From NCBI GenBank assembly GCA_029259355.1, contig JAPDIZ010000002.1, positions 558,001 through 622,000 on the forward strand: 64,000 nt of DNA, written 5' to 3'. Below the pieces are notes generated by a model. The model was not told the origin of the DNA. It searched no databases and saw only the letters and a list, made by a program, of their open reading frames with translations. This document shows, in pieces, positions 2,946-8,560 of the stretch. The stretch is from Candidatus Bathyarchaeota archaeon (GTDB lineage: Archaea; Thermoproteota; Bathyarchaeia; JAPDIZ01). The position numbers and the translations under genes were made by a program. Position 1 is the first letter of the stretch. Each line of letters begins with the position of its first letter.

Positions 2946-3378
2946 CTACACTCTCCTACCACGCCTTCCCCCAGGCCTCCTCGTCCCATCGTGAGGAATG
3001 GGCGTAACCTCCTCTATCCTCCCAATCCTGAGCCCGCTCCTCGCTATAGCCCTGATGGCAGCTTGCGCTCCGGGCCCCGGAGTCTCTACCCCGCCTCTAG
3101 GAGGCGATTGGGCCGTGGCCTCCGGGAGCCCTTACCTTGATGTGCACCGCTGTGATGCCCTTGTCTTTAGCCACTTGAGCTGCGTAGGTTGCTGCTTGCA
3201 TAGCTGCGTAAGGGCTTGACTCAAGCCTATCGGCTTTGACGAACATCCCTCCTGAGGCTCTGGCAATGGTCTCAGCGCCGCTCAAGTCGGTGATGTGGAC
3301 TATGGTGTTGTTGTAGCTGCTATAGATGTGGACCACTCCCCACTTCTCCTTCACAGCCTTCTTCTCTCCACTACTCAT
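2946..3378 (-). CDS. rps11: 30S ribosomal protein S11 (uS11), two exons
   Basis: Platform protein of the 30S subunit. Read straight through, the frame from ATG 3376-3378 gives a normal N-terminal two-thirds up to [13 protein letters not shown] and stops at TAG 3097-3099. The missing conserved tail, [18 protein letters not shown] through GGRRGRRV, is present downstream in another frame and ends at TAG 2946-2948. Removing 22 nt (3086-3107) restores one frame of 136 residues with APGGHGPKTPGPGAQ, matching the family spacing (APGG, four residues, TPGPG). I therefore annotate join of 3108-3378 and 2946-3085 on the minus strand. GGTGATCT precedes the ATG. Confidence 0.92.
3086..3107 (-). other. Putative 22-nt archaeal intron in rps11 mRNA
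   Basis: On the transcript the segment contains a 6-bp hairpin (CGCCTC, loop CTA, GAGGCG). It is preceded by a 3-nt bulge AAT and followed by GGGT, which can pair with GCCC of exon 1 as the 4-bp central helix, then a 3-nt bulge AGA. Cutting after the second base of each bulge, the archaeal splicing endonuclease rule, joins A to AG and creates a Lys codon in the right place. The helix on the exon side is displaced by a small internal loop (CCCGGAG with CTCCGGG), so the motif is of the relaxed type. The in-frame TAG lies inside the intron. Confidence 0.8.
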
Positions 3379-3474: not shown

Positions 3475-3511
3475 AATCCCGGAAAAAGCAAGAGTTGCCG
3501 GGGTCGCCTAG

Positions 3512-3530
3512 AGCCGTAGGAGGCGGGGAA
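3512..3530 (+). other. Putative D-loop intron of tRNA-Ser
   Basis: About 19-20 bases between the GCCTAG of the D stem/loop and CCGGTAGGGC. Removal gives a 17-base D arm with A14, G15, GG18-19 and A21 in standard places. The insert can form GCC/GGC with flanking AGA and AAT triplets, bulge-like, but the outer exon helix is not perfect, so the exact cut sites may shift by a base or two. Confidence 0.65.
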
Positions 3531-3553
3531 TCCGGTAGGGCGCGGGCCTGGAG

Positions 3554-3565
3554 CCTTGGACAAAG
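3554..3565 (+). other. Putative anticodon-loop intron of tRNA-Ser
   Basis: Twelve extra bases at the canonical 37/38 position. Removal leaves the loop CTGGAGA with U33, anticodon GGA and purine 37. I do not see a clean bulge-helix-bulge here, so the boundaries are uncertain by a base or two. Confidence 0.55.
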
Positions 3566-3663
3566 AGCCCGTGGCGCATCCGCGCCGCGCGGGTTCAAAT
3601 CCCGCCCCCGGCGCCAACATAAAAGTCCAGTAACTCAGCTAGACATTTCGTGTGGGGAGGGCT

Positions 3664-6994: not shown

Positions 6995-7558
6995 TTGGGC
7001 GACCCAAAGAAGCCTAGGAAGAAGTATAGGACGCCGAGGTTTCCTTGGAGAAAAGATGTGCTTGAGGCTGAGCTTAGGATAATCGGTCAGTACGGTCTTA
7101 GGAACAAGAGAGAGCTCTGGCGATACCAAACCATGGTCTCCAGATTTAGAAGGATTGCGAGAGGCCTTCTGGGCAAGTCTCCTGAGCAGAGAGCGGCTTT
7201 GGAGAAGGAGCTTCTGGGCAAGCTGCACAGGCTTGGGTTAGTGTCTGAGGACGCAACAATAGACGACGTTCTAGACCTGAAGGTTGAGGATATCTTGGAG
7301 AGAAGGCTTCAGACCATAGTCTACAAGCTGGGGTTGGCCAAAACCCTTCATCAAGCTAGGCAGCTCATAGTCCACGGCCACATAGCCGTGGGCGATAGAA
7401 GGGTGAAAGTCCCGAGCTATCTCGTCAAGAGGGGAGAGGAGCAGCTCATAGGCTATAGCTTCTCAAGCCCTCTGAGAGACCCTAATCACTCGCTTAGGAA
7501 GGAGCTAGCCACGCCTCCACCAGTAGAGGAAGGGGTTGGTGAAGAAGCTACCGCTTAG
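6995..7558 (+). CDS. rps4: 30S ribosomal protein S4 (uS4)
   Basis: Primary 16S rRNA-binding protein, 187 residues. [35 protein letters not shown] is the archaeal N-terminal signature; the S4 RNA-binding fold ([36 protein letters not shown]) is at about residues 105-145. Start TTG 6995-6997 follows GGAGGAGGT. The 3' end overlaps the convergent cbf5 gene by 11 bases, so the two messages share a short complementary tail. Confidence 0.96.
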
Positions 7559-8560
7559 ACTTCCACATCCTAGGGTAGGTCCCCGGCTCCATAACCACTC
7601 TTCTCGTCAAAACAGCTATTCCGTGGTCAGCGTCTAAGATCTCCTCAGTAGACATCACCGCCTCGCCCAGCGCTACAGCTTCTCCCTTCAAGGTGGTTAT
7701 CGCTACCAAGTCTCCCTTAGAGACTCCGCTGCTGACAGCCACTATCCCTGGGACAGCGAGGTGTGCTCCGTGGCATATGGCGTCAACCGCGGAGTCCCTT
7801 ACCACAGCTTTTGGCAAAAGATCCAAGGCTTCTTCGAGCGGCCTAACTACCTTCCTAACACCGCTCTCATCACCCTCCTCCCTCCACTTGGTAAAAGCGT
7901 CCACTAGCTCATACAAGTCTACAGCAGAGTCTTCGACGAAGGGGCCAGTGCGTGTCCTCCTGAGCTCTTCCATGTGCGCACCCGTCCCCAACACCTCACC
8001 TATGTCGTAGCATAGCTTACGGATGTAGGTACCTGCTTCGCACCCGATCCTCATCAAAACGTAGGGTGGAGAGACCTCAAGCACCTTTATGAAGTATATT
8101 CTGCGAGTTCTCAACTTGCGCTTAACCGAAGACCTAAGCGGGGGTCTCTGGTAAATCTCCCCCACGAACTCCTGGATAACCTCCTCTACACGCTTGAGGT
8201 CTGGAGCTCCGTGAAGCCTAAGCACGCAAACGTACTCCTTGCCCGCGGTCAGGAAGACTTGGAGGATGCGTGTCGCTTTCCCAAGCGCCACCGGGAGCAC
8301 GCCAGTTACGAGGGGATGTCCCCAGCAGCTGCTCCTAGGGTCCCCCCGTGGCCAACCCGGTCCACGCCCACGATCTTCCTAACCGTCGCAGCTACTTCGT
8401 GGCTTGTTGGGCCAGGGGGCTTGTCGAGATTTATTATGCCGTAGGTGATGTAGCTCTCGATGGGGCGGTTCTGGGGCTCACACCCATAGTCTGGGCTCGT
8501 CTCCTCCTCCGCCCGGTAGATGAGCTCCCTCTTTACCTCCCATGGAGGAGTAGTCGCCAC
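7548..8560 (-). CDS. cbf5: rRNA/H/ACA pseudouridine synthase Cbf5 (TruB family), two exons
   Basis: Catalytic subunit of box H/ACA RNPs, which isomerises uridine in rRNA. Exon 1 (8335-8560) encodes ...[16 protein letters not shown]...GHGGTL; exon 2 (7548-8317) encodes [16 protein letters not shown] onward, including the PUA domain near the C-terminus. Read through, exon 1 stops 9 codons later. Excising 17 nt (8318-8334) gives [16 protein letters not shown], restoring the catalytic Asp motif and a 331-residue protein of normal length. Start GTG 8558-8560. It closes the spc-type cluster after rpl14e. Confidence 0.95.
8318..8334 (-). other. 17-nt archaeal intron in cbf5 mRNA with canonical bulge-helix-bulge
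   Basis: On the transcript: exon helix GGGGA/TCCCC, 3-nt bulge ACA on the 3' side, central 4-bp helix CCCT/GGGG (one G-U pair), 3-nt bulge AGG on the 5' side, and an intron hairpin AGC-AGCT-GCT. Cutting after the second base of each bulge joins G to AT and makes GAT, the catalytic Asp. Introns in cbf5 are established for several Crenarchaeota; this is a very short one with all elements of the splicing motif. Confidence 0.92.

Follow-up and report, generated by a model that had tools for sequence, protein, structure and literature searches.

The rps11 gene and its interruption

The window, by which we mean the whole stretch of 64,000 nt that was analysed and in whose numbering positions are given unless a contig is named, carries the gene for ribosomal protein S11 in two pieces on its minus strand:

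rps11 (ribosomal protein S11 gene): 3378→2946, minus strand
rps11 exon 1: 3108..3378, minus strand; ATG at 3378, ends ...GGHGP|A after the first base of a Lys codon, with a match to the NCBIfam archaeal S11 model
candidate 22-nt intron, TCGCCTCCTAGAGGCGGGGTAG: 3086..3107, minus strand; contains an in-frame TAG (3099-3097); called from the excision that restores GGHGPKTPGPGAQ, the BHB fold and its absence from the rps11 of relatives
rps11 exon 2: 2946..3085, minus strand; AG of the Lys codon, then TPGPGAQ... to the stop TAG at 2948-2946

Without splicing, the frame stops at the TAG to give 93 aa, and the missing tail TPGPGAQ... sits in the +1 frame. All excisions at the break with start offsets within ±40 nt and lengths of 4-119 nt were tried. 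Only one of them, removal of the 22 nt 3107→3086, regains GGHGPKTPGPGAQ, and it yields a complete S11 of 136 aa. Against the NCBI archaeal S11 model, which has a cut-off of 182 bits, the spliced protein reaches 230 bits and the 93-aa product of the unspliced frame falls short with 138.

The segment splits a Lys codon as A|AG. The S11 spacing at this point, APGG-3 residues-[K/R]-TPG-x-G, was present in 75 of the 75 related rps11 sequences read at the site, and since these relatives all keep it with a Lys or an Arg ahead of TPG, the protein sequence by itself sets the position of the junction. No second copy of rps11 was found in this genome. S11 is universally required, and rps11 is an essential gene. 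A first-pass annotation had described a frame broken by TAG with the conserved tail in another frame, and a 22-nt excision that restores the S11 spacing through a codon split A/AG; the sequence is as it described, and the excision proved to be unique among those tried and to give the full-length product.

Structure of the excised segment

The elements of the predicted fold are listed in transcript order:

outer exon helix, 5′ arm CCCGGAG: 3120..3126, minus strand; a 6x5 internal loop lies between this helix and the core
BHB central helix, exon arm GCCC: 3110..3113, minus strand; pairs with GGGT 3091-3088 in the MFE fold
5′ bulge AA|T: 3107..3109, minus strand; cut between 3108 and 3107
intron hairpin CGCCTC-CTA-GAGGCG: 3092..3106, minus strand; 6 bp with a 3-nt loop
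BHB central helix, intron arm GGGT: 3088..3091, minus strand; called from the MFE fold and pair probabilities
3′ bulge AG|A: 3085..3087, minus strand; cut between 3086 and 3085
outer exon helix, 3′ arm CTCCGGG: 3076..3082, minus strand; called from the MFE fold

Independently of the protein, the MFE fold of the rps11 RNA contains the BHB (z = -3.1; 0 of 200 shuffles were equally stable). MFE fold and pair probabilities both give a core of two opposing 3-nt bulges and a 4-bp helix, with pair probabilities in the central helix of 0.96-1.00 at 37 C and 0.84-0.93 at 70 C. The borders defined by the protein fall between bases 2 and 3 in both bulges, i.e. at the canonical scissile positions, so that folded core and protein agree on the cuts that had been proposed after the second base of bulges AAT and AGA around a 4-bp helix.

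The exon side of the motif consists of the bulge AGA plus GA opposite GCCACG, followed by the 7-bp CCCGGAG/CTCCGGG helix. This is not the strict hBHBh′ form: the inner helix has 6 bp and the outer helix appears only beyond the 6x5 loop. Because that internal loop separates the exon-side helix from the core, we place the rps11 motif in the relaxed class (HBh′), which bears out the earlier remark that the exon-side helix is imperfect. Relaxed HBh′ motifs are efficiently cleaved by EndA of the (alpha-beta)2 and epsilon2 types (PMC6379350). The relaxed motif of rps11 depends on a broad-specificity EndA, which is a point against the splicing reading.

The window contains no Rfam match at gathering score. 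Group I and group II self-splicing introns have a catalytic core that well exceeds 100 nt, and the rps11 segment, at only 22 nt, belongs to neither group.

rps11 in related genomes

Among the genomes compared from the class Bathyarchaeia, the window's genome is the sole representative of its family. Of 257 class genomes, it alone has an rps11 that is divided into two adjacent pieces. The insertion was not found in 236 other class genomes, each with a single match; beyond the matches listed, absence in this survey rests on that single match and its E-value. Nor was it found in the rps11 genes that a sample of 398 genomes from across the phylum yielded. A search of related genomes for an insertion at the same site had been suggested as a check, and in the searches made the insertion is private to the window's genome. 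The putative intron seems to have been gained recently and in this lineage only.

Several irregular matches were rejected as further cases. Truncated class matches were contig ends or masked stretches where inspected, the split matches in G291 and G557 were contig ends, that in G484 was an internal deletion, and the second match in G257 was a weak secondary hit. Four genomes (G004, G010, G032, G042) showed apparent stops within rps11, all of them outside the conserved frame, which reads through whole in the genes that were translated. The segment resembles the neighbouring tRNA-Arg gene in one 9-base match, which does not speak for an origin from that gene.

Other BHB introns in the genome

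Two further protein genes carry BHB introns, one of them in the window:

cbf5 gene: 7548..8560, minus strand; exon 1 8560-8335, exon 2 8317-7548
cbf5 17-nt canonical BHB intron: 8318..8334, minus strand; splits the catalytic Asp codon G|AT; called from scan rank 1 and its fold
amrS (AmmeMemoRadiSam radical-SAM) 32-nt BHB intron: C2:302576-302607, plus strand (locus L169)

The cbf5 intron, in the same window as rps11, serves as an internal control, and spliced Cbf5 scores 463 bits (cut-off 242). Introns of 18 nt at the Asp codon occur in two relatives (G002, locus L222, and G007) and in none of four others read, while many more Bathyarchaeia have cbf5 in two pieces at the Asp residue. The amrS intron, additional to those listed in the earlier annotation, interrupts the CxxxCxxC Fe-S cysteine motif; its excision restores CNFTCPWCQN and gives 285 bits (cut-off 220). 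A split of amrS at this site was not found in the relatives searched. Both introns, that of rps11 and that of amrS, thus seem to be confined to this genome. An uninterrupted amrS paralogue lies in the same genome at C1:451369-452358.

All three introns (rps11, cbf5 and amrS) fall after the first codon base (phase 1), and those of rps11 and amrS have the boundary words GCCCA[A/T]| and GGGTAG| in common.

Splicing machinery and tRNA introns

Two EndA genes were found, one on contig C2 and one on C6, together with a gene for RtcB ligase. For the C2 protein (alpha) the best alignment is with A. pernix subunit 3p1z_B; its Tyr, His and Lys positions (GPGIDHAP, VRKKF) are retained, and the alignment extends across the crenarchaeal-type loop region YGKPVGIPKPKTPDF. 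The C6 protein (beta) is without the His. The genes show the (alpha-beta)2 pattern, from which we infer the quaternary form. EndA of this form is reported to have a broad specificity that is given by the crenarchaea-specific loop (PMC6379350). The genome encodes an EndA of the type that cuts relaxed motifs as well as the ligase.

ARAGORN predicted introns in 17 of 39 tRNA genes. A tRNA-Arg(CCG) gene, divergent from rps11 at 3497-3616 on the plus strand of the window and apparently with at least one intron, was not in the default ARAGORN run and was detected with introns allowed. In a tRNA-Leu gene at C6:32750-32873 the scan of the genome found two or more strong BHB motifs, which ranked at its top, and the gene probably contains multiple introns.

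Genome-wide scan and chance expectation

BHB-like cores are common: 1216 at least as strong as that of rps11 occur at L<=70 on both genome strands. The loosest definition of a core is satisfied by 1.2e-3 of (start, length) combinations, and a core with at least 3 G-C in the 4-bp helix and at least 6 inner pairs by 7e-6. Since cores alone are common, the weight of the rps11 case rests on their coincidence with the protein repair.

A hexamer coding model was trained, and BHB cores were listed whose excision joins two otherwise broken coding frames; the scanned genome was rebuilt from stretches and comprised all but 288 bases of C6. The top two candidates were cbf5 (rank 1) and amrS, both real genes. 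The rps11 intron ranked 13th overall, and third if those candidates are left out that have a start codon a short way downstream; the two then above it overlap an apparent frameshift. Judged from their sequences, without Pfam, the remaining candidates were mostly ordinary gene-gene junctions, presumably of a benzoyl-CoA-reductase-like pair, VapB/VapC-like genes, Mg-chelatase/CobN-like genes, NAD-synthesis genes and MoaD/radical SAM.

A search that made no use of BHB motifs took ORFs from about half of the relative G007, 458 of which had good matches. What it gave was an insertion in rps11 of exactly 22 nt and one in amrS of exactly 32 nt, together with a small number of shifts by one base and some ragged cases of low identity. 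The cbf5 gene of G007 is no positive control here because it has an intron of its own.

A PAPS-reductase-like gene (locus L112) has an in-frame TGA within a 30-nt BHB-like segment at C1:22735-22764, plus strand, with an A/T-rich central helix and a 6-bp inner helix; no homologue was found in 40 relatives.

Interpretation and alternatives

Very probably the 22 nt in rps11 are an archaeal pre-mRNA BHB intron that is cut by EndA and joined by RtcB. This reading, also that of the first-pass annotation, is favoured by a unique repair at canonical scissile positions, by the lack of the insertion in relatives and of an intact second copy, and by the presence in the same genome of a splicing endonuclease of broad-specificity type, RtcB, and the cbf5 and amrS introns. 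Sequence, fold, exact protein repair, enzyme genes and the two parallel introns are features of the genome itself; cleavage, ligation and translation in the cell would follow from them as set out here. In the rps11 transcript, the exon GCCC would pair with GGGU at the 3′ end of the intron, while the intron would fold on itself into the 6-bp hairpin, leaving bulges AAU and AGA. An (αβ)-type EndA would cut both bulges between bases 2 and 3, and RtcB would join the exons across the Lys codon A|AG and probably circularise the 22-nt intron. The joined mRNA would then be translated into a normal 136-aa S11.

Programmed +1 ribosomal frameshifting near TCC-TAG could in principle read through the segment with no splicing, as a shift ahead of the TAG would meet no stop and would lead into the frame of the downstream exon, which is +1. 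The product would have eight residues (IASRGGVE) in place of the conserved Lys/Arg, an insertion seen in 0 of the 75 relatives read, and this would account neither for the BHB with its exact cuts nor for what is found in cbf5 and amrS; we consider this reading very unlikely.

An assembly or sequencing error behind the break has hardly any probability in our view. Even with a point indel, rps11 would still contain 21 foreign nt, single-base errors cannot create a 22-nt BHB insertion, and a chimera would not yield a BHB with S11-restoring scissile sites, nor do likewise in two other genes. It is true that the genome is a draft (9 contigs, 95% complete, 3.4% contamination) with apparent single-base frameshifts elsewhere, at C2:252058 in an Mtd-like gene (L166) and at C5:71640 (L194). 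These two, both in conserved genes, are probably assembly errors and possibly programmed shifts; the gene at C2:252058 we take to be an F420-dependent methylene-H4MPT dehydrogenase.

It is just as implausible that this rps11 is a dead gene whose function comes from a second copy, or that its two halves are translated separately. Exon 1 alone does form a 93-aa ORF, but the universal requirement for S11 demands another rps11 in the case of a pseudogene, and none was found in the genome; exon 2, intact to its stop, is without a start codon near its beginning. Translational bypassing was rejected, as no pre-stop codon matches the GAG before ACT and the product would have Glu in place of Lys.

Significance

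The splicing reading suggests that the mRNA of a universal ribosomal protein gene is processed by the tRNA-splicing machinery, which in archaea is known essentially only for cbf5; BHB introns in archaeal coding sequences have so far counted as a curiosity of a single gene. With those of rps11 and amrS it would be shown that protein genes can acquire such introns recently and that gene callers overlook them, with the consequence that in archaeal MAGs essential genes seem broken or missing. We see about even chances that Bathyarchaeia whose EndA has broad specificity are actively acquiring very small BHB introns in ordinary protein genes, perhaps via a common insertion route, which may be considered because all three introns are in phase 1 and those of rps11 and amrS share GCCCA[A/T]|...GGGTAG|. 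If such gain is ongoing, archaeal mRNA splicing would be a continuing process and not a lone cbf5 relic. According to an earlier proposal, a relaxed specificity of EndA allows introns to be gained in mRNA (PMC2738675), and the rps11 case makes that proposal directly testable.

Comparison with known systems

A paper of 2020 (PMC7714728) states that the cbf5 mRNA was the sole further case of an archaeal BHB intron reported by then, and no report of a BHB intron in rps11 or a further coding gene was found in the open literature to August 2026 (subscription papers and preprints lie outside this scope). The statement of the first-pass annotation that archaeal mRNA introns are known mainly for cbf5, with none in rps11, agrees with both.

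Pre-mRNA introns of cbf5 were described for Crenarchaeota (Watanabe 2002; Yokobori 2009, PMC2738675). The genome's own cbf5 intron interrupts the catalytic Asp codon, the same position as in Crenarchaeota (PMC2738675), although the cbf5 introns of Bathyarchaeia lie outside the Desulfurococcales and Sulfolobales, for which the cbf5 intron was described. The rps11 intron, in contrast, is not at that codon of cbf5; it has another host gene and site, and the searches found it in one genome only. With the BHB introns of archaeal tRNA and rRNA it shares the structural signal, the similar short length and presumably the enzymes (EndA and RtcB), but its host RNA is an mRNA, so that excision must restore a reading frame and the spliced RNA is to be translated. 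EndA likewise cuts a BHB in the mRNA of HVO_1309 of Haloferax volcanii (PMC7714728), where the site is in the 5′ UTR, whereas that of rps11 is inside the coding sequence. The BHB kind of intron is already known, and what is unusual here is rps11 as the host gene, the Bathyarchaeia lineage, and the company of the cbf5 and amrS introns.
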